From: a virus
Length of the DNA: 20,807 nucleotides
IMG/VR virus record: IMGVR_UViG_3300037553_000436
Location: 1 to 20,807 of that record
Strand: one strand, 5' to 3'
The notes beneath the pieces were generated by a model, which did no database searches, had not been told where the DNA came from, and saw only the letters and a list, made by a program, of their open reading frames with translations. How positions within the stretch are numbered: the first letter of the stretch is position 1; each line of letters starts with the position of its first letter. Shown here one piece after another: positions 12,631 through 20,710 of this stretch. Both the position numbers and the translations under genes were made by a program.

Positions 12631-13401
12631 TTAATCGTCCAGTAATACCTCGTCAGACATTTCTAACTTTAAAGGCTCGTCGGTTTCGAGGCTGGTTATG
12701 GCTGTTCGCAGTTTTTCTATTTCAGCTAGGATCCTACTATCATTATGTGCTCCTCCCACCTTGGCTGCCCAGTCGGCTTTCGCCTTTCTCGTTTCCATCA
12801 GCTTATCCAGCCAGTTCTGTCGCCGCTTCTCAAGCTTATCTAGCATCTCGACAGCAGGGTGGAGCTTCGCTGTCTCTGCGGTTTCTCCGTGCTCGCTAAA
12901 GCCCAGGATGTCCACCCGCATAAAATCCCTTCCCTGTCCGCTCTTATCACCCGCTGACATCACCATTAAGGATCTATTCTTATAGAGGTCGATTAGAGCT
13001 AACTCATTCACTATTGACATCTCTACAGGGTTAGCCGGGTCAACGTTTAAGTGCTCTACATACTCGATAATTTTTTGCTGCATATAGAATTTCTCAAGTA
13101 TACACTCTCTGCCCATAGGGTAGTTCTCAATGTCCCCGAATTCCACTGCCCCCTTGGGATCTCTTTCTGGAATGGGACACTTGGCTATAAAAGGGCATTT
13201 CTCTGGCCCAAGACACATGATTGGGGCCACCGCGTGTAGCCCCGTCTGGATCCGGTTGATTGAGTTAACAATCCGCTGCTTTTTTTCCGGGGGTAGGCTT
13301 TCGAGATAGTTTTCGTACTCCGGCTCTATTACTGATATCTGATCTATTATCTCTTGTCTGGTTGGGACTACAGCAAGCTTTAGGGTTGTTTTATCACTCA
13401 T
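12631..13401 (-). CDS. Cysteine-cluster protein, possible metal-binding packaging factor
   Basis: The 256-aa protein has four cysteines in its middle: C63, C69 and C75 (IMCLGPEKCPFIAKCPIP) and C100 (YPMGREC). This spacing suggests one bound zinc ion or iron-sulphur cluster. After this come helices with EMSIVNELALIDLYKNRS and, at about 185-240, a charged helical region with likely coiled coil. The end is acidic (EVLLDD). Proteins of this general pattern occur near terminase genes in large phages and could act as a small-terminase or DNA-recognition subunit, but I cannot assign a family with certainty. The start ATG 13401 lies within the end of the preceding gene, with GGAA about six bases before it. 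The gene is complete. Confidence 0.75.
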   Translation of the reverse strand: MSDKTTLKLAVVPTRQEIIDQISVIEPEYENYLESLPPEKKQRIVNSINRIQTGLHAVAPIMCLGPEKCPFIAKCPIPERDPKGAVEFGDIENYPMGRECILEKFYMQQKIIEYVEHLNVDPANPVEMSIVNELALIDLYKNRSLMVMSAGDKSGQGRDFMRVDILGFSEHGETAETAKLHPAVEMLDKLEKRRQNWLDKLMETRKAKADWAAKVGGAHNDSRILAEIEKLRTAITSLETDEPLKLEMSDEVLLDD

Positions 13402-14155: not shown

Positions 14156-14190
14156 GTGGGGTTTTTAGCCCACCCCCCTTTTTTATTTAA
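14156..14190 (+). terminator. Hairpin and T-run before the first rightward gene
   Basis: GTGGG (14156-14160) pairs with CCCAC (14169-14173). A C-run and then TTTTTT-A-TTT follow. The stem is weaker than at the later sites. Its presence upstream of the first gene implies transcription already entering from the spacer. Confidence 0.5.
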
Positions 14191-14203
14191 CGAGCGATTG
14201 CTC
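14179..14203 (+). promoter_or_regulatory. Leader cassette copy 1
   Basis: The tract TTTTTTATTTAACG is followed by the mini-hairpin GAGC-gatt-GCTC (14192-14203), then AAAGGGG and the ATG at 14221. Confidence 0.6.
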
Positions 14204-14220
14204 AGAAAGGGGTAAGCAAC

Positions 14221-14406
14221 ATGAAAACTTATCGCATTACGTTTGAGGACGGAACCTTCTTCCATGGTGAGACATATGGAGAGATGGTTACGGAAATCAT
14301 CCAGCGGTATAGTTTGCTGTTTGTTATCTGGAGCTATGCAGACAAAAAGGCTGGCCACTGGATGATTGATGGCAAGCTGGAGATGGTGCGAAACTATATT
14401 CACTAA
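14221..14406 (+). CDS. Small hypothetical protein
   Basis: The 61-aa product is soluble-looking: a beta-hairpin-like start (MKTYRITFEDGTFFHGETYG), a helix (EMVTEIIQRY), a strand (LFVIWSYADK) and an end KLEMVRNYIH. There is no recognised family. AAAGGGG precedes the ATG by eight bases. It is the first of the rightward small genes and has its own leader cassette and downstream terminator, so it is probably a single-gene unit. Such stand-alone small genes in large phages often encode host-takeover proteins, which is inference here. Confidence 0.75.
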   Translation: MKTYRITFEDGTFFHGETYGEMVTEIIQRYSLLFVIWSYADKKAGHWMIDGKLEMVRNYIH

Positions 14407-14421
14407 GAGGAAAAGGGAAAG

Positions 14422-14456
14422 CCTTGGCGCATAGCGTCAAGGGCCCTTTTTCTTTT
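14422..14456 (+). terminator. Hairpin terminator
   Basis: CCTTG (14422-14426) pairs with CAAGG (14438-14442), extended inward by a G-T and C-G pairs. CCC and TTTTTCTTTT follow directly. Confidence 0.75.
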
Positions 14457-14480
14457 AATGAGCACTCCATTCGTGTGCTT
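14447..14480 (+). promoter_or_regulatory. Leader cassette copy 2
   Basis: TTTTTCTTTTAATG is followed by GAGCAC (14460-14465) pairing with GTGCTT (14475-14480). AAAGGAG follows before the ATG at 14499. Confidence 0.65.
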
Positions 14481-14498
14481 TGAACAAAGGAGAAGACT

Positions 14499-14615
14499 AT
14501 GTTTAGGTACATATTGTTCTGTATCCTCGTGCCCTACATCATTCTGGAGTGTATCTGCTTCCAGAACTTTGGGACCAGCACACCAGTGTACGACTGGTGC
14601 TGTCCCCCTGAGTAG
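14499..14615 (+). CDS. 38-aa membrane micropeptide
   Basis: A short frame of 38 codons begins at ATG 14499, seven bases after AAAGGAG, and ends with TAG at 14615. The peptide is MFRYILFCILVPYIILECIC and then a polar end with a CC pair. Residues 4-20 are hydrophobic, so it is probably a single-pass membrane peptide with several cysteines. It has its own cassette upstream and terminator downstream exactly like its longer neighbours, which is the main reason to accept such a small gene. The family is unknown. Confidence 0.7.
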   Translation: MFRYILFCILVPYIILECICFQNFGTSTPVYDWCCPPE

Positions 14616-14631
14616 GAGCGAGAGAGAGGAA

Positions 14632-14676
14632 GCCCGGTCGCGTGTGCATGCACGTGTACCGGGCCTCTTTTTCTTT
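14632..14676 (+). terminator. Hairpin terminator
   Basis: GCCCGGT (14632-14638) pairs with ACCGGGC (14658-14664), with inner CGTG/CACG pairs. CTCTTTTTCTTT follows. Confidence 0.8.
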
Positions 14677-14704
14677 AATGAGCACTCCACTTATGAGAGT
14701 GCTT
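14668..14704 (+). promoter_or_regulatory. Leader cassette copy 3
   Basis: TTTTTCTTTAATG is followed by GAGCACTC (14680-14687) pairing with GAGTGCTT (14697-14704), eight base pairs. The start of this leader nearly repeats that of copy 2, but the 3' half has changed together with the stem. Confidence 0.65.
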
Positions 14705-14732
14705 TGAATTGTTCTCTTGAAAGGAGAATATT

Positions 14733-15035
14733 ATGTTTGAAGGTCTTTTCATTCTTGGCTTGTTGGTCATCGCGATCCTGACCTGTCTTCGATGCGTACG
14801 ACTTGAGTGTCGTGCCCTCAAGGCGGAGACGGAGATCGTTGATCTCCAGATCAAGGTCGAGGAGCTCCAGGCAGCACAGCCGTCCCGGGAGGCTCTCATC
14901 GTATTGGGCTTACTGGTTGGCACCTGTGAGGCCGATGGACCGTTCCGAACCCCTAATGGGAGCCCCTTCTGGGCTACGAAGCCTCTGGAGGTCTTCGTCC
15001 GGGAGCCGGATATGAACCTAGTGAAGATCAGCTAG
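14733..15035 (+). CDS. Membrane-anchored coiled-coil protein
   Basis: The 100-aa product has an N-terminal hydrophobic segment (about 4-18, LFILGLLVIAILTCL), then a likely coiled coil (about 22-48, ALKAETEIVDLQIKVEELQA) and a polar C-terminal region. AAAGGAG lies seven bases before the ATG. This plan of one membrane helix plus coiled coil recurs at 19528-19887 and, in shorter form, at 16688-16891. It would suit a small inner-membrane protein that assembles with itself or a host partner. The family and function are unknown. Confidence 0.75.
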   Translation: MFEGLFILGLLVIAILTCLRCVRLECRALKAETEIVDLQIKVEELQAAQPSREALIVLGLLVGTCEADGPFRTPNGSPFWATKPLEVFVREPDMNLVKIS

Positions 15036-15060
15036 TCAACTAGCGGTCTAGAGAGAGGGA

Positions 15061-15106
15061 GCCTGGTGTGCGTGTTTAACACGCATGCCAGGCCCTTTTT
15101 CTTTTA
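15061..15106 (+). terminator. Hairpin terminator
   Basis: GCCTGG (15061-15066) pairs with CCAGGC (15088-15093), and inner GCGTGT (15070-15075) with ACACGC (15079-15084). CCTTTTTCTTTT follows at once. Confidence 0.85.
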
Positions 15107-15123
15107 ACGAGCAACTTACGCTC
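15096..15123 (+). promoter_or_regulatory. Leader cassette copy 4
   Basis: TTTTCTTTTAACG is followed by GAGC (15109-15112) pairing with GCTC (15120-15123). Confidence 0.6.
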
Positions 15124-15139
15124 AGAAAGAGAGAAGCTG

Positions 15140-15301
15140 ATGCTGAAGCTGAAGATGTTGTGGAACAGGCTGCAGAGGAACTGGCTTCCTATACTCGTGG
15201 TGGTGCTCTTGGTAGCAGTCACTGGGAGCATCTGGAAGACTCACCATGTCCATGTGGAGCGTGGTCTCTATGACTGTGATACCAGTTATCACAACCACTA
15301 G
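15140..15301 (+). CDS. 53-aa single-pass membrane protein
   Basis: Fifty-three codons run from ATG 15140 to TAG 15301. The N-terminus is basic (MLKLKMLWNRLQRN), residues about 15-28 are hydrophobic (WLPILVVVLLVAV), and the C-terminus is histidine-rich (KTHHVHVERG and YHNH). This is a clear small membrane protein with a positive inside-type N-terminus. AGAGAG about five bases upstream is a modest ribosome site. A longer overlapping frame at 15085-15273 starts inside the terminator hairpin and lacks a ribosome site, so this frame is preferred. The family is unknown. Confidence 0.7.
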   Translation: MLKLKMLWNRLQRNWLPILVVVLLVAVTGSIWKTHHVHVERGLYDCDTSYHNH

Positions 15302-15325
15302 CAGATAGGAGAGACAGAGGAGAAA

Positions 15326-15360
15326 GGGTCTGGACGAAAGTCCGGGCCCTTTTTCTTTTA
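15326..15360 (+). terminator. Hairpin terminator with GAAA loop
   Basis: GGGTCTGGAC (15326-15335) pairs with GTCCGGGCCC (15340-15349) around a GAAA tetraloop, ten pairs including two wobbles. TTTTTCTTTT follows immediately. Confidence 0.85.
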
Positions 15361-15376
15361 ACGAGCAATCATGCTC
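15350..15376 (+). promoter_or_regulatory. Leader cassette copy 5
   Basis: TTTTTCTTTTAACG is followed by GAGCA (15363-15367) pairing with TGCTC (15372-15376), loop ATCA. Confidence 0.65.
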
Positions 15377-15391
15377 TGAAGGAGGTGTCTA

Positions 15392-15700
15392 ATGGCTAAC
15401 CTACAACTCGTGGCGCTCCAGCGGGAGATCGCTGAGGATATGTGCGTATGGGCTTTGCTCATGCGCCAGATTCTCAGCATCCTCAGCGAGGGCGTTGAGA
15501 CCGACATGATCCACACGAACAAAATTCAAGTCTTCGACCGAGATGGTCGCCGGCTTCAGCTTTGGTCGTGTGGAACAATCTATTATCGGGTCGATAAGAC
15601 CGAGAATAGGGTCCATGTCCCTGACTCGTTTCGTGATAGCGCGAGAGCGTTGCTCACGCAGGCGAACGAGTGGGCGATCCGAGTGAACCTGGGGATCTAG
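15392..15700 (+). CDS. Small soluble hypothetical protein
   Basis: The 102-aa product has an N-terminal helix (LQLVALQREIAEDMCVWALL), a central beta-like part (KIQVFDRDGRRLQLWSCGTI) and a C-terminal helix (DSARALLTQANEWAIRVNL). There is no membrane segment. GAAGGAGG precedes the ATG with good spacing. It is unrecognised. It stands between its own leader and a terminator, so it is likely a single-gene unit. Confidence 0.75.
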   Translation: MANLQLVALQREIAEDMCVWALLMRQILSILSEGVETDMIHTNKIQVFDRDGRRLQLWSCGTIYYRVDKTENRVHVPDSFRDSARALLTQANEWAIRVNLGI

Positions 15701-15719
15701 GTTCACATCGAGGAGGCAA

Positions 15720-15761
15720 CCCGGTACACGTAGCAATACGTGTGCCGGGCCCTTTTCTTTT
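15720..15761 (+). terminator. Hairpin terminator with GCAA loop
   Basis: A 13-bp stem joins 15720-15732 to 15737-15749 around GCAA (15733-15736), with one T-G wobble. CCCTTTTCTTTT follows. Confidence 0.85.
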
Positions 15762-15797
15762 AACGAGCTCTCTTCGGGGATTATCCCGGAGCAGCTC
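15752..15797 (+). promoter_or_regulatory. Leader cassette copy 6
   Basis: TTTTCTTTTAACG is followed by GAGCT (15765-15769) pairing with AGCTC (15793-15797). The enclosed 23 nt can form a second hairpin (CGGG with TCCCG region). This is the longest leader hairpin of the set. Confidence 0.55.
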
Positions 15798-15812
15798 TGG
15801 AGGTACAGTCAA

Positions 15813-16253
15813 ATGACTGCACTAGAACACTTGGTGTTCCTCGTTCTCGTCAGCATCCTGCAGGCGGGTGGAACTATCGAGACCAATGGTCCCGAAATCT
15901 TCCACACGGTCAACACTGGTGGTCCGAGTGGCGCGGTAAAGCATTACTGCGTTCACTCTGGCAACCAGTATGCTCAGCAGGGTGTCAACAGAGCAATGGT
16001 TGATACTGGTTCTCGGTACAATGACGTTCGTTACGTCATGGTACTTGACGGAGCTGATGTCGGCTACTGCCTGGAAGCTGAGAAGCCAGGAGCACTCAAC
16101 CGTGATGGTGACACATGGCGCTTCTTCGATGACAAGGAGCAGCTCATGATCGCCACAATGGTGGAGCAGAGTGGATTCGGTACCTGGGATATCCCGTGGG
16201 AGACCGGTTACCACCTCACCCTGCCCCTACCAACTCCACCTACGGGGGAGTAG
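15813..16253 (+). CDS. Putative exported small protein
   Basis: The 146-aa product begins with a hydrophobic stretch (MTALEHLVFLVLVSILQAGG, residues 7-17) that could be a signal peptide, possibly cleaved near AGG, although its N-terminus lacks a clear positive charge. The remainder is polar, rich in G, D and aromatic residues, with only two cysteines (YCVHSG and GYCLEA) that could form a disulphide. GGAGG lies ten bases before the ATG. No family is recognised. An alternative is an N-terminal membrane anchor with an outward-facing domain. Confidence 0.75.
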   Translation: MTALEHLVFLVLVSILQAGGTIETNGPEIFHTVNTGGPSGAVKHYCVHSGNQYAQQGVNRAMVDTGSRYNDVRYVMVLDGADVGYCLEAEKPGALNRDGDTWRFFDDKEQLMIATMVEQSGFGTWDIPWETGYHLTLPLPTPPTGE

Positions 16254-16269
16254 AACCTTCGACAAGCTT

Positions 16270-16343
16270 GGGGGTGTACGTTGCAATATGGCCTACTGAA
16301 GGCTGAGCAGCGTGCACTCCCGGGTTGTCCTCCTTTTTCTTTT
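16270..16343 (+). terminator. Branched hairpin, terminator-like
   Basis: GGGGGTGTACG (16270-16280) pairs with CGTGCACTCCC (16311-16321), enclosing a small GCC/GGC hairpin. The T-rich tract starts about 12 nt after the stem, so this is less canonical than the others. Confidence 0.55.
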
Positions 16344-16360
16344 AATGAGTAACTATGCTC
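16334..16360 (+). promoter_or_regulatory. Leader cassette copy 7
   Basis: TTTTTCTTTTAATG is followed by GAGTA (16347-16351) pairing with TGCTC (16356-16360). The T-G wobble replaces the C-G of the usual GAGCA form, so pairing is kept. Confidence 0.6.
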
Positions 16361-16374
16361 TGAAAGGACAAACC

Positions 16375-16602
16375 ATGAAAGTTGTGAAAGACCTTGCTTT
16401 GTACATCCTGATGGCCTGCAGTATGATCTGCTGTATCGGCATCGGACACTGCGGTGCCTCCAACGGACTGACAACCGAGCAGGTCTCGGAATGTCAGCTG
16501 CTGCTGTTGGAGAAGGAAGTCTATGAGGCTCAGCGGAAGAAGGCGATGAGGTGGTCTGAGGACGCTGCCTACCACATGAAGAGGGCGATGCAGCAGCAGT
16601 GA
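16375..16602 (+). CDS. Small membrane or lipoprotein-like protein
   Basis: The 75-aa product starts at ATG 16375, eight bases after AAAGGA. A longer frame from 16312 would begin inside the preceding hairpin and is rejected. The N-terminus has two lysines and then a hydrophobic, cysteine-rich segment (about 7-22, LALYILMACSMICCIG). LMAC at 12-15 loosely resembles a lipobox. The rest is polar and helical (TEQVSECQLLLLEKEVYEAQ). It could be a lipoprotein or a single-pass membrane protein. The family is unknown. Confidence 0.7.
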   Translation: MKVVKDLALYILMACSMICCIGIGHCGASNGLTTEQVSECQLLLLEKEVYEAQRKKAMRWSEDAAYHMKRAMQQQ

Positions 16603-16611
16603 CTGTGATTG

Positions 16612-16652
16612 GGGCCGGCGCATTTCGATGCGTCGGCCCTCCCTTTTTATTT
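16612..16652 (+). terminator. Hairpin terminator with UUCG loop
   Basis: A 12-bp stem (16612-16623 with 16628-16639) is capped by TTCG. CTCCCTTTTTATTT follows. Confidence 0.85.
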
Positions 16653-16675
16653 AATGGTCTCCATGAAGTGAGACT
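16644..16675 (+). promoter_or_regulatory. Leader cassette copy 8
   Basis: TTTTTATTTAATG is followed by GGTCTC (16656-16661) pairing with GAGACT (16670-16675). The stem sequence is entirely different from the GAGCA/TGCTC type but the position is the same. Confidence 0.65.
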
Positions 16676-16687
16676 AGAGAGGAGGTC

Positions 16688-16891
16688 ATGATGACCTTTA
16701 TACAATTGTCGGTCCTCGTGGTGGCGGCGGTTAATGTCGCTATCTGCTCGGTGTTGTTATATGTTGTGTGGGAGCAGCGAAAGCTGTCTCAGCGCATCAG
16801 CCGAGTCAATGGGCGAGTCGATCGCAACTGGCGTGATTATATGTCAGAAGCGGACGAGGATGCTCAGATCACAAACGGCAGCATCTGCTGA
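16688..16891 (+). CDS. Small membrane-anchored protein
   Basis: The 67-aa product begins with two methionines. GGAGG is two bases from the first ATG (16688) and five from the second (16691), so the second may be the true start. Residues about 4-27 are a clear membrane helix (FIQLSVLVVAAVNVAICSVL and on). The rest is charged, with heptad-like LSQRISRVNGRV. It is the last gene before the long structured RNA. The family is unknown. Confidence 0.75.
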   Translation: MMTFIQLSVLVVAAVNVAICSVLLYVVWEQRKLSQRISRVNGRVDRNWRDYMSEADEDAQITNGSIC

Positions 16892-16908
16892 TTGTTGATT
16901 GAGGTGTT

Positions 16909-16966
16909 GGTCCCCGGCGTGTACGTTTTTACGTGCACGCCTGGGGCCCACTTTCTTTTTCTTTAA
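16909..16966 (+). terminator. Long hairpin terminator before the structured RNA
   Basis: GGCGTGTACGT (16916-16926) pairs with ACGTGCACGCC (16931-16941) and CCCC (16912-16915) with GGGG (16943-16946). TTTCTTTTTCTTT follows after CCCAC. It is one of the longest stems in the set. Confidence 0.85.
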
Positions 16967-16970
16967 CGGT
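16951..16970 (+). promoter_or_regulatory. Leader cassette copy 9, in front of the structured RNA
   Basis: CTTTCTTTTTCTTTAACGG matches the tract seen before the protein genes. The hairpin after it (CATGTGG 16974-16980 with CCACATG 17012-17018) serves as the first helix of the RNA. No ribosome site and start codon follow. Confidence 0.6.
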
Positions 16971-17344
16971 TCTCATGTGGACGAACTGAAAACGGCGAAA
17001 GCTGTATATAACCACATGTAGTAGAGTCGAAAGGCTTTGGTTCTATACCTCTGTACGAGGTCCGAAAGGGGCAAGTACAGGGGCGAATATGTAGTTGTTA
17101 GAGGTCGAGACATGTTCTCGATATCTGAGGTCAACCTTAATAGGAAAGTTGTATAACTCCTGAACAGGCCAACTCAGAGAAAGACGTAACTGATACCTCG
17201 TAACGCCTACTCAGCTTAGGTTGAGTAGCCGGTTGGTCGTAGCTGCCAGATGCGACCATACCGGGCCCCGATGCTCTCTGGGAGAGCTTAAGGGAGGTGT
17301 GACTTTGGGTAACCTTGCGGGACTACTGTAAAAGGTAGTTGGAG

Positions 17345-17433
17345 CTTGGAGACCCTTGGCGGAAAGTAGGAGTGGGTCCGAAGCCCTTCTCATGCAAACT
17401 ACTGGAAGCCAGGGTGTTCTCCAAGAAACCCTG
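17345..17433 (+). other. Predicted pseudoknot inside the structured RNA
   Basis: CAGGGT (17410-17415) and ACCCTG (17428-17433) form a stem. Its loop contains TCTCCAAG (17418-17425), which is an exact complement of the upstream CTTGGAGA (17345-17352). An eight-pair loop contact this close is unlikely by chance but is not proof. Confidence 0.5.
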
Positions 17434-18106
17434 CCCCTCGTAGCTGTCAGAAATACGAGATCACATCTTCAGGGAGTACCATCCTCTGGTTAACTTACTT
17501 ACCAGATGGACCGGTCTCGGGAAGGGGTGCCGCCTTAGTAGCGAATTGTTTCGTGTAACTCTGGCTGAGTCTGCAGTGGAGATTGGTGTTAGCCGATCAA
17601 AACTGCAGACAAGGCTGGGGTCTATCACTTACTAAGTTCTAAGGCCAGGTAGAGAGGCGAGACGCTTGCCAGACTTACCTGACGGTACCTAGACCGAAAA
17701 TCTAGGTTGAGGTTGACTGTAACCTTATCCAACAAAACAGTCGTCAGCGAGTTTCGACTTGCTGACTATGGCACTGTCCCGGTGTCATGAAAGTTCGTAG
17801 ATATGGGACGCTGCTCCACACAGCGTAGGTGTCAAAGCCGGGTTCATCTCCACGGTTATTAGCATCTGGTTGCAAGTGCTTTTTGGTACTTGCATTAAGG
17901 GCGTTTCCACCTGCAGATAAGGTGGTGAGTAGATCTCCCCTACAAGAATGAAGCACGGAAGGACGAATCTGGTCATTTCGTGTGGATTCAACCTGCCTAG
18001 GGAGGCCCCAACCTCTGGGCGCTATGTAAGAGACTTGGTACATCTCATCATAGCAAGTGAGGCCTTAAGAGTTCTAGTGGACTCTTGCTCCTTAAGTGGA
18101 GCGTTA

Positions 18107-18157
18107 AAGAGCGGAAAGGTATGTGCCGTTCTTGAAATATAAATGCAATCCACCTTT
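18107..18157 (+). other. Predicted H-type pseudoknot near the RNA 3' end
   Basis: AAGAGCGG (18107-18114) pairs with CCGTTCTT (18126-18133). The loop starts with AAAGGT (18115-18120), which pairs with ACCTTT (18152-18157) just before the final hairpin. Confidence 0.5.
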
Positions 18158-18159
18158 GT

Positions 18160-18185
18160 CTGGGGGGCCCTTCGGGGTCCCCCAG
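18160..18185 (+). terminator. UUCG hairpin at the RNA 3' end, no T-run
   Basis: Eleven pairs (18160-18170 with 18175-18185) are capped by TTCG inside C-G. Unlike the other hairpins it is followed by GCACC, not by T residues. It may stabilise a 3' end or act as a weak terminator rather than stop transcription fully. Confidence 0.5.
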
Positions 18186-18194
18186 GCACCTTAG

Positions 18195-18256
18195 CCTGTC
18201 GTGGGATCTGATATGGGATCAGATTCATTTGATCTTGTATGAGATCTCACGGCAGG
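18195..18256 (+). promoter_or_regulatory. Long imperfect hairpin with four GATC sites
   Basis: CCTGTCGTGGGATCT (18195-18209) pairs with AGATCTCACGGCAGG (18242-18256), 15 continuous pairs including two wobbles. The loop holds GATCA/TGATC (18217-18221, 18230-18234). An alternative pairing ATCTGAT (18206-18212) with ATCAGAT (18218-18224) excludes the inner part of the long stem. It lies 20 nt upstream of the next ribosome site and could be an RNase III cut site or a regulatory switch. GATC recurs at 18205, 18217, 18231 and 18243. Confidence 0.6.
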
Positions 18257-18292
18257 TCCTACCAACCAATGAAAGAAAAGGAGAATGAAGTT

Positions 18293-19201
18293 ATGTACTT
18301 CATCAAGCGAATGATACTGTGGGTGCTCTCAATTCTGGGAGTGGCCTTCTTCATGGTCTGCACTCTGATCTCGACGGTTCTTGGTAACAAGAACTCGACG
18401 GCGAAGTGTGGGAACTGGATGCGGGGACAGTGGTACCTCTTCATCGAGGAGCCGACAGTGGTCCTCCACTGGCTCTCGGGCTGGCGGAGTGGCCTCGTGT
18501 CTCGCTTCAACGGCTGGAGGGCTGCTCGTGCCGAGAAGAAGGCTGCAAAGCTGAAGCTGAAGGCTGAGGCTGCAGAGGCTGCAAAGCTGAAGGCAGACAA
18601 GGCAAAGGAGGCGAAGAAGGCCAAGGGACATTGGTTCCAGCGCTTCGTCTGCTGGAGCGGCTTGCTGTTCCTCGATGCGCTTGAGGCGAGAAATCGTCGA
18701 GTTCTCTCGGACTATGAGTTCGTGGGAATGCGCATGCCGGATGGCGAGTACATTCCGGTGCAGCCTGGTCAGATGCCAGAGGCGGTGTCTTCGGACATTG
18801 CTGATGGTGACGAGGGTGGCGACTGCGATGAGGAGTTCCTCATCGAGACCGAGCCGGTGGATCCCTTGGGGGACACCGACGAGGTGCTGGCAGTCGTGAC
18901 TCTGCACGATGAGGATGAGGGGCCTTTCGGGCTCCCCACCGAGACGGACGAGATGCGGACGATGCTTGAGCAGGTAGCTCAGGTCAGTGAGTTTCGACTC
19001 GCTGGCATGAGTCTGACCTGGCAGGAGCAGCTGAAGCTCTGGTCTCACATCTGCAGAGACCGGAACAAGAGCGATCGGAGTAAGCTCGCCGTTCAGGAAG
19101 CTCTGACGAAGGAGGTCGAGAGCTGGACTGGCGACGAGGGTAGTGCTCAGCAGTCTATCCGGGCTAACCTGAGCATTGGTCGCTACCCCGAGTTCCCGTG
19201 A
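18293..19201 (+). CDS. Membrane-anchored protein with Lys/Ala coiled coil and acidic region
   Basis: This is the largest gene of the right arm (302 aa). AAAGGAG (18277-18283) is nine bases from ATG 18293, which is therefore preferred over an in-frame ATG at 18239 inside the upstream hairpin. Residues 5-30 form a membrane helix (KRMILWVLSILGVAFFMVCT). Residues 76-112 are rich in K, A and E and probably a long helix. Residues 165-225 are strongly acidic, and the C-terminal third is mixed helical. The DNA for the K/A/E region contains a direct repeat. A long antisense frame covers the same bases but has no ribosome site. It lacks the standard cassette and follows the structured RNA, so it may depend on read-through or processing. 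The family is unknown. Confidence 0.8.
   Translation: MYFIKRMILWVLSILGVAFFMVCTLISTVLGNKNSTAKCGNWMRGQWYLFIEEPTVVLHWLSGWRSGLVSRFNGWRAARAEKKAAKLKLKAEAAEAAKLKADKAKEAKKAKGHWFQRFVCWSGLLFLDALEARNRRVLSDYEFVGMRMPDGEYIPVQPGQMPEAVSSDIADGDEGGDCDEEFLIETEPVDPLGDTDEVLAVVTLHDEDEGPFGLPTETDEMRTMLEQVAQVSEFRLAGMSLTWQEQLKLWSHICRDRNKSDRSKLAVQEALTKEVESWTGDEGSAQQSIRANLSIGRYPEFP
18541..18592 (+). repeat. 16-bp direct repeat inside a coding region
   Basis: GGCTGCAAAGCTGAAG occurs at 18541-18556 and 18577-18592, exactly 36 bp (12 codons) apart. It encodes the repeated AAKLK in the helix of the 302-aa protein and suggests internal duplication. Confidence 0.7.
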
Positions 19202-19398
19202 GTTGCGGGGACTGTGGTGCTGAGACTTACCTTCGGAAGGAAGGTAAGGATTGGTACCGGGTGTGTCGAGGCTGTGGAGCGAAAGCGAAGCAGTCTCGAC
19301 ACAATCCTCCATCGGTGATTGAGTTCACTGGTGGAGGTGTTCATGGTGCTTGCCTGCCTTGCGGTTGCGCCATTGAGCAGTGTGAATGCAAGGAATAG
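19198..19398 (+). CDS. Small zinc-ribbon-like cysteine-rich protein
   Basis: The 66-aa product starts with GTG at 19198 and overlaps the previous stop as GTGA, so translation is probably coupled. It has two CX2C pairs (C3/C6 and C23/C26) in the style of a zinc ribbon, with YLRKEGKDWYRVCRGCG between and across them. A second cysteine cluster follows near the end (C52, C55, C57, C62, C64), which could hold another metal. Nine cysteines in 66 residues is striking. Zinc ribbons of this kind often bind nucleic acid or RNA polymerase, which is family knowledge rather than something shown here. Confidence 0.7.
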   Translation: MSCGDCGAETYLRKEGKDWYRVCRGCGAKAKQSRHNPPSVIEFTGGGVHGACLPCGCAIEQCECKE

Positions 19399-19421
19399 AG
19401 GGGGCTAGATAGTCCCTGGTG

Positions 19422-19475
19422 TGTGGGAGCGGGGCCTTCGGGCCCTGCTTCCCCACATCCCCTTCTTTTTATTTA
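19422..19475 (+). terminator. Hairpin terminator with UUCG loop
   Basis: GCGGGGCC (19429-19436) pairs with GGCCCTGC (19441-19448) around TTCG, with one wobble. Outer TGTGGG pairs with CCCCACA with small bulges. CTTCTTTTTATTT follows. Confidence 0.8.
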
Positions 19476-19503
19476 GTGAACTTGTGCGCTCAAGTATGAG
19501 TTC
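19463..19503 (+). promoter_or_regulatory. Leader cassette copy 10
   Basis: TTCTTTTTATTTAGTG, a variant with AGTG instead of AAYG, is followed by ACTTG (19480-19484) pairing with CAAGT (19491-19495). An outer GAA/TTC pairing is possible. Confidence 0.55.
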
Positions 19504-19527
19504 TTACCAAGAAGGGAGGTTCCTATC

Positions 19528-19887
19528 ATGGGACTTCTTATGATGAGTGTTATCCTGGGCCTTGCGGTGGCTTGCCACCTGATGCAAGCTCGTCTCAAGC
19601 GGCTGGAGAGTCGCTTCATGCAGAGCGAGCTCAACGTCAATAAATACCGGCGAGAGCTCACTGCGGGTGTTCGGCAGAACGGTGTGAGCATCGGCAAGCT
19701 GACCGAGCGTCACAGCGAAGCTATTCTGCGGCTGGGTGAAGATGTCTTGATGCTGGAGAAACTGATGACTGGGTTGGCACCCGCTTCGGCTTCGGCGTTG
19801 ACTATCGAGATCGGTGACGCCGATTGCGATCACCTCCTGGAGAGTTCCACCCTCACGGTGGAGATCGACGACACAGAGCGCCAGTAG
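19528..19887 (+). CDS. Membrane-anchored coiled-coil protein
   Basis: The 119-aa product begins with a short hydrophobic helix (MGLLMMSVILGLAVACHLM), then a basic, heptad-like helical region (about 20-60, QARLKRLESRFMQSELNVNK and onward), another helix near 65-85, and an acidic polar tail. GGGAGG precedes the ATG. Its plan matches the protein encoded at 14733-15035, but sequence similarity is not obvious by eye. The family is unknown. Confidence 0.75.
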   Translation: MGLLMMSVILGLAVACHLMQARLKRLESRFMQSELNVNKYRRELTAGVRQNGVSIGKLTERHSEAILRLGEDVLMLEKLMTGLAPASASALTIEIGDADCDHLLESSTLTVEIDDTERQ

Positions 19888-19913
19888 GTAACTGCTACAG
19901 GCACAACAGGAAC

Positions 19914-19953
19914 GGGGGGCTCCTTCGGGAGTCCCCCCACTTCCTTTTTCTTT
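19914..19953 (+). terminator. Hairpin terminator with UUCG loop
   Basis: GGGGGCTCC pairs with GGAGTCCCCC across TTCG (about 19914-19937, ten pairs including one wobble). ACTTCCTTTTTCTTT follows. Confidence 0.85.
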
Positions 19954-19970
19954 AACGAGCAATTTTGCTC
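19945..19970 (+). promoter_or_regulatory. Leader cassette copy 11
   Basis: TTTTTCTTTAACG is followed by GAGCA (19957-19961) pairing with TGCTC (19966-19970), loop ATTT. Confidence 0.65.
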
Positions 19971-19988
19971 AGAAGACAAGGAGAAGTT

Positions 19989-20231
19989 ATGCGTTCGTTT
20001 TGGACTAAGTCTAGTTTCCCAATCTTGACGATTATGGCATTCCTGTTGCCAATGGTCACCTTCGTTGCATTGATCTCGATCTTCGGATCGGGTTATCTGA
20101 ACTTCGAAGAGTACGTCGGTGAGCCGTGGGGTGAGGTCTGCACGACAGTGTTCTTGATCTTACTGTTCGGTAGCGGTGGCCTGCTTGCCAGGAAGGTCGG
20201 CTATTGGGAGGTGGATATTTACGACAACTAG
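19989..20231 (+). CDS. 80-aa protein with two membrane helices
   Basis: ATG 19989 is preceded by AAGGAG at about seven bases. An in-frame ATG at 19965 lies in the leader hairpin and is rejected. Residues about 10-33 (FPILTIMAFLLPMVTFVALI) and 49-67 (EVCTTVFLILLFGSGGLLAR) are hydrophobic, giving a two-pass hairpin membrane protein with both ends on one side. Size and topology fit a class II holin or another small phage membrane protein. No lysis partner is visible nearby, so I do not call it a holin. Confidence 0.75.
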   Translation: MRSFWTKSSFPILTIMAFLLPMVTFVALISIFGSGYLNFEEYVGEPWGEVCTTVFLILLFGSGGLLARKVGYWEVDIYDN

Positions 20232-20252
20232 CCTCGGCTAGGTTCCGCCTGT

Positions 20253-20306
20253 GGGGGCCCCGAGTCACACTTCGGTGTGGCTCGGGGTCTCCCCCTTTTT
20301 CTTTTA
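20253..20306 (+). terminator. Long hairpin terminator with UUCG loop
   Basis: CCCCGAGTCACAC (20258-20270) pairs with GTGTGGCTCGGGG (20275-20287) around TTCG, thirteen pairs including one wobble. Outer G and C runs extend the stem. CCTTTTTCTTTT follows. Confidence 0.85.
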
Positions 20307-20312
20307 ATGAAT
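20295..20312 (+). promoter_or_regulatory. Leader cassette copy 12, without a clear mini-hairpin
   Basis: CTTTTTCTTTTAATGA matches the tract exactly, but the sequence after it (ATACCAATCTCTCG) does not form the small hairpin seen elsewhere. AAAGGAG and the ATG at 20337 follow as usual. Confidence 0.55.
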
Positions 20313-20336
20313 ACCAATCTCTCGAAAGGAGAAATT

Positions 20337-20660
20337 ATGAAGATATATCGTTACTTAGAGGTCACCGGGCGCAAGGGGCTGATCGGGCGGTTCGCGCTCC
20401 ATAGGCGAGCGGGCGAGCACATCCTAGGGCCCTTCCGGGATGAGGCGATTGCTAGTGGGTCCACTCTTGAGGAGTGGATTGACGATGCCGAGGTCGATGA
20501 GGAGTGGGCGCTGTTCCAGTGGGCTGGTCGCGTCGGGCTCTCGCAAGTGATTCCGGCCCGGTGCCCGCAGCGAGTACCGGCGTTCAAGATCACCGCCGTC
20601 CTCGACGTTGAAGAACCGAAGAGTCGCACCGTCATGCTGAAGCGGATCTACGCAAAGTGA
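20337..20660 (+). CDS. Small soluble hypothetical protein
   Basis: The 107-aa product starts at ATG 20337, seven bases after AAAGGAG. An earlier in-frame ATG at 20277 lies in the terminator hairpin and is rejected. The sequence is mixed alpha/beta: MKIYRYLEVTGRKGLIGRFA at the start, an acidic centre (EEWIDDAEVDEEWALFQW), and a C-terminal strand region (FKITAVLDVEEPKSRTVML). There is no membrane segment. The family is unknown. Confidence 0.75.
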   Translation: MKIYRYLEVTGRKGLIGRFALHRRAGEHILGPFRDEAIASGSTLEEWIDDAEVDEEWALFQWAGRVGLSQVIPARCPQRVPAFKITAVLDVEEPKSRTVMLKRIYAK

Positions 20661-20666
20661 AAACCA

Positions 20667-20710
20667 GGGAGCCCCTTTCGGGGGGCTCCCGCAACCCCCT
20701 TTTTCTTTTA
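20667..20710 (+). terminator. Hairpin terminator with UUCG loop
   Basis: GGGAGCCCCT (20667-20676) pairs with GGGGGCTCCC (20681-20690), ten pairs including a T-G pair that closes the TTCG loop. GCAACCCCCTTTTTCTTTT follows. Confidence 0.85.

Follow-up and report, generated by a model that had tools for sequence, protein, structure and literature searches.

A gene-free stretch in a large-phage genome

The locus described here raises the question of what a phage keeps in more than a kilobase of plus strand that encodes no credible protein. The window, that is, the whole 20.8-kb virus record that was analysed, is accompanied by three further records from the same virus; its minus-strand half encodes the portal protein, the terminase large subunit and an SNase-domain protein, and small genes occupy its plus-strand half. 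The terminase is 46–67% identical to terminases of other uncultured viruses, on contigs of up to 192 kb, and is distantly related (25–31% identity) to those of four cultured phage records; the virus belongs to a group of large phages about which little is known. A 67.6-kb contig of the same group (L209, PBNR01000029.1) was binned in a Gammaproteobacteria MAG, which may be a host hint or may reflect a mis-binned virus.

The initial annotation had claimed that positions 16967–18186 hold no credible gene, and this was borne out: the longest plus-strand open reading frame (ORF) inside is 64 aa, a second ORF scan found one 46-codon frame, and a scan filtered for Shine-Dalgarno-like sequences gave an ORF-free gap of 16892–18292. 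Comparison of 32 frames of at least 25 codons with relatives yielded no credible match (best E 0.05), and the conserved protein frame that had been named as counter-evidence is absent from the stretch.

Predicted folding of the plus strand

On the plus strand, 16960–18200 folds to −500.7 kcal/mol as against −415.0 kcal/mol (sd 11.1) for 40 dinucleotide shuffles, the lowest of which reached −443 kcal/mol (z −7.7), and 16967–18256 gave a z of −10.8 (20 shuffles). The minus strand of 16960–18200 folds to −416.8 kcal/mol (z −5.8); the plus strand is thus better folded than its complement by 84 kcal/mol. An excess of stems over chance, also proposed in the initial annotation, holds for uninterrupted Watson-Crick stems of at least 6 pairs (13 vs. 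a shuffle mean of 2.2, maximum 7) and for stems of at least 8 pairs with G-U allowed (12 vs. 3.8, maximum 8), but not when all 6-pair stems are simply counted with G-U allowed: 25 vs. a mean of 17.4 (maximum 27) is unremarkable. The GAAA-capped hairpins (two; shuffle mean 0.14) and the UUCG-capped 3′ hairpin are present as described, with two UUCG-capped hairpins in all (shuffle mean 0.07).

Neighbouring stretches have equal or lower raw folding energies, and raw energy alone would therefore not single out the region; plus-strand folding is strong across the right half of the window because the small genes there follow terminator hairpins. This frequency of hairpins in the same half of the window favours the idea that the stretch has no RNA function and is either a fast-changing, hairpin-rich sequence into which terminator-like repeats have grown or an element that acts at the level of DNA, an idea that we regard as very unlikely and against which the strand preference speaks.

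Boundaries and parts of the RNA

The RNA is about 1.3 kb long, and 16962 to ~18257 describe its bounds better than 16967–18186 (Table 1). A repeated module stands ahead of about twelve plus-strand genes in the window; it is made up of a G/C hairpin, a CCCTTTTTCT-like tract, a TTTAA(C/T)G element and a short leader hairpin, and may combine a terminator with a phage promoter. Since the RNA opens with this gene-type module at 16962, we infer that its own transcription unit starts there. The module copies, about a dozen, span 14186–20710 (+), each before small genes, and a TTTAACG-type element also opens the counterparts in G004, G009 and G039 described below. No T-run follows the UUCG-capped hairpin, which is therefore not a terminator; the pairing of the long hairpin downstream of it was revealed by a chance match to a miRNA model. 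As a separate observation, L200, L202, L197 and L199 repeatedly show a GAGCCCACCGGGG-like motif ahead of the start module, upstream of the RNA or of nearby genes.

Table 1. Features of the window and lengths of the syntenic counterparts
Feature	Position	Strand	Length	Remark
Conserved 256-aa protein	12631..13401	-	256 aa	Synteny anchor, separate from the RNA
Terminator-like G/C-rich hairpin (16912-16946) plus pyrimidine-rich tract	16912..16961	+		Directly 5′ of the RNA; from sequence
TTTAACG element, presumed transcription start module	16962..16968	+		RNA start
Large structured noncoding RNA	16967..18257	+		Folding statistics, stem counts
TTACCTGACGGTACCT	17675..17690	+	16 nt	Identical in G004 counterpart, sole sequence element common to both
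12-pair UUCG-capped hairpin	18159..18186	+		Near 3′ end
Long hairpin between RNA and next ORF	18195..18257	+	~60 nt	Sequence, folding
302-aa protein ORF	18293..19201	+	302 aa	N-terminal membrane helix (hydropathy 2.65), charged repeats
G004 counterpart			990 nt	z −7.0
G009 counterpart			443 nt
G039 counterpart			481 nt
L196 counterpart			939 nt
L199 counterpart			1049 nt
L200 counterpart			805 nt
L202 counterpart			876 nt
L017 and L053 counterparts				Both clipped by contig ends

Syntenic counterparts in related viruses

Searched against 50,697 phage records, the window RNA sequence had no homologue, and its matches were confined to the same virus and to short matches in related records; the counterpart RNAs of G004, G039, L199 and L053 likewise gave no convincing match in the phage collection. 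When 48 related records were searched by blastn, one exact 16-nt match, TTACCTGACGGTACCT, was found in G004 (66% terminase identity), where it sits in a 1-kb gene-free stretch at the equal position and in the equal orientation. By our own simple count, the odds of a 16-nt identity between two such stretches are about 3 in 10,000; blastn itself gave E values between 0.01 and 0.1 in the different searches. Five further viral contigs, beyond the same virus and G004, carry the exact 16-mer in positions that were all read as within genes, and a near-match in L030 was dismissed as it falls within a gene. A plain alignment of the window and G004 RNAs (42% identity) was unreliable and was therefore left out of the covariation analysis.

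Because the 16-nt match lies in a syntenic stretch, synteny was used to seek counterparts, with the 256-aa protein as anchor and inspection of the stretch upstream of it. Nine further viruses carry gene-free, folded counterparts at the same locus, with lengths from 0.44 to >1.2 kb (Table 1). Weaker candidates occur in L195, L197 and L206 with z values of approximately −1.5 to −2.5, which, like the other z values of the screening scans, were computed with an approximated standard deviation and are meant for ranking alone. Structured gaps in L026, L182, L184 and L156/L159 were dropped, as they proved to hold small genes on reading by eye. The anchor protein itself is cysteine-containing and adjoins the packaging genes; weak matches to it come from Moorella phage MTATph1 and Bacillus phage vB_BauM_KLEB27-3.

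Sequence similarity of the counterparts to the window RNA is almost nil, consisting of one 16-nt match in one virus, and common descent with it rests on position, not sequence. Such poor conservation would also suit a stretch devoid of RNA function, as would the ordinary genes found at the locus in G012 and in L209, the closest relative by anchor protein (73%); against this stands the fact that about ten viruses share both locus and orientation. From the ordinary genes in L209 and G012 it follows that the RNA is dispensable or movable, which weighs against the reading preferred below.

Compensatory changes in the counterparts

As the window RNA has no alignable homologue in the collections searched, compensation was examined in the counterparts only, in sets of two and three sequences, and the helices shown to be kept are those of the counterparts, not of the window RNA. 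The alignment of G009 and G039 (436 columns) contains 84 consensus pairs, of which 26 changed on both sides yet were kept, as compared with a mean of 12.4 in column shuffles, none of which (0 of 100) attained 26. The consensus energy of this pair gave a z of −7.3 against column shuffles, while 11 coding stretches of these two viruses, taken as controls, ranged from −2.9 to +1.0, and the plus strand (z −6.1) was better folded than the complement (z −4.5). L200, L202 and L196 have in common a 3′ domain with compensatory pairs immediately before the next ORF, and a model built from L200 and L202 retrieves L196 with an E of 2e-4. Covariance models R1 and R2 did not retrieve the window RNA; R2, run unfiltered, hit only a 14-nt hairpin (E 0.09).

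That compensatory changes exceed those of column shuffles further argues against a stretch without RNA function. The proposal of the initial annotation, a large structured phage RNA and possibly a new class, is thereby upheld as regards folding, syntenic counterparts and compensation in two counterpart subgroups, although not in its mention of GOLLD and ROOL. We consider it highly probable that the stretch is a functional structured RNA; it probably represents a family of large, structured phage RNAs that is new. To our knowledge, there are only a handful of RNA classes this large and complex, and the phage-borne ones among them are without known function.

Comparison with known RNA families

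No match to the window was obtained with cmscan at the Rfam gathering thresholds, 4,227 Rfam models at E ≤10 gave short chance-level matches only and no large-RNA family, and the models for GOLLD, ROOL, OLE, group I and group II introns and tmRNA did not match. A tRNA was found neither in the window nor in a 30-kb record from this virus, and the window holds no tmRNA. Six counterpart loci were likewise without a match at the gathering thresholds, and three counterparts searched at E ≤10 gave chance-level matches only. GOLLD or ROOL membership, with no Rfam match at E ≤10 and no tRNA nearby, is thus unsupported. The size, phage setting and GAAA-capped hairpins might still be those of a too-diverged member of GOLLD, ROOL, OLE, group I/II introns or tmRNA, or the stretch might be a degenerate gene, but the results with the 4,227 models and the lack of credible matches for the frames of the region make this extremely improbable.

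GOLLD and ROOL, ornate RNAs of phages and prophages, form multimeric cages (PMC12286853), and the predicted window RNA resembles them in being large, gene-free, densely folded and phage-encoded. It differs in failing their covariance models, in lying directly before a membrane-protein ORF, in the 0.44 to >1.2 kb range of its counterparts and in having no tRNA island; GOLLD is often near phage tRNA genes, a neighbour that the window RNA lacks. An RNA-only cage or oligomer acting like GOLLD or ROOL, with no part for the neighbouring protein, would be in keeping with the size, the hairpin density and the phage setting of these multimeric cages (PMC12286853), yet we find it distinctly unlikely in view of the missing Rfam match and tRNA island and of counterparts as small as 0.44 kb. 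A kissing-loop arrangement through GGUACC palindromes was considered and set aside; shared palindromic loop sequences showed no significant enrichment, which also counts against such a cage.

ORF-less transcripts are made by other phages. ICP1 produces an abundant one of ~800 nt, which adjoins the start of the lysis cluster in a genome without tRNAs (PMC7567579), and phage K produces abundant lnc001 and lnc002 (PMC9241854); these transcripts show that lytic phages make such RNAs. The likeness to the window RNA lies in gene-free stretches of ~0.6–1.2 kb in lytic phages, with the difference that the ICP1 and K transcripts were detected by RNA-seq, whereas the window RNA is predicted only and found no match by sequence among the phage records searched.

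A membrane-protein gene downstream of the RNA

No terminator lies between the RNA and the 302-aa ORF, nor between counterpart RNA and next ORF at eight counterpart loci; in G004, a single T-rich 8-mer lies 145 nt ahead of the ORF. The next ORF encodes an N-terminal membrane protein at nine of the ten loci with a readable ORF, the window included; the helix is borderline in L196 (1.68), and L195, without an N-terminal helix, is the exception. Five of eight other module-led genes in the window also have such a helix, and the membrane link is therefore not specific there. The corresponding count in relatives is 3 of 24, and the link stands out in these viruses, with the qualification that the nine loci share ancestry and hence are not independent. 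The membrane proteins of the loci are barely similar (G004/G039, E 0.002). The 302-aa protein matched no family in Pfam and, used as a query for homologues, retrieved the same virus only.

The absence of a terminator at nine loci is what would be expected of a giant cis-acting leader, an extreme 5′ untranslated region that controls the membrane-protein gene through stability or translation and does nothing in trans. An unstructured CAACAAC-like linker in G009 and G039, which leaves the ribosome-binding site open, points the same way. Leader needs are, however, far exceeded by 0.4 to 1.3 kb, the leaders of neighbouring genes that bear this module are short, and the size varies threefold, and we judge a purely cis-acting role to be rather unlikely.

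We prefer, as quite possible though tentative, a large structured RNA located 5′ in the membrane-protein mRNA that would have a structural role and would plausibly be tethered to the membrane by the neighbouring protein, by analogy with OLE. In its favour count the folding and stem statistics, the lack of a gene, the strand preference, the syntenic counterparts with compensated helices, the start module, and the missing terminator and membrane helix at nine loci. The OLE partner OapA was found through adjacency to a membrane-protein gene (PMC11332333), and OapA takes OLE to the membrane (PMC10898510). Like OLE, the window RNA is large and immediately adjoins a membrane-protein gene; unlike it, the window RNA comes from a phage and not from a cell, does not match the OLE model, and its neighbouring proteins have no OapA-type (CNNM-like) domain in Pfam. 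The RNA would be made as the leading section of the mRNA for the membrane protein, would fold during synthesis and may act as a structural RNA, in an RNA or RNA-protein particle, and the neighbour-encoded protein might recruit it to the membrane as OapA does OLE RNA. The bolder form of this tethered-RNA reading, a fast-evolving, phage-specific giant RNA class, detectable by synteny only, that would make up the 5′ half of the membrane-protein mRNA and form a membrane-bound ribonucleoprotein with that protein during infection, is doubtful as a whole. A family at one locus beside one type of protein gene, beyond the reach of sequence search, offers a concrete partner to test, and synteny can reveal large RNAs missed by similarity searches.

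Other gene-poor stretches in the virus and its relatives

A second ORF-poor, hairpin-rich stretch of ~2 kb occurs in the same virus (L086 6515–8521, equal to G002:26515–28521), and it has a CCCCCCGACAGGGGG-type hairpin in common with L087 4032–5053 (−). Gene-poor stretches of ~1–2 kb are also present in relatives, at L102 12919–14875, L134 6050–8329, L125 10647–11563 (−) and L107 3691–5636, lying 16–19 kb from the terminase where this was measured. Rfam gave no match inside those searched (L102, L107 and L134). The stretches of L102, L134 and L125 are partly alike; T-arm-like GGTTCRATYCC segments, not called as tRNA, occur in L102 and L107. Two related viruses carry tmRNA genes, at L143 12159–12549 (−) and L157 10298–10698 (+).
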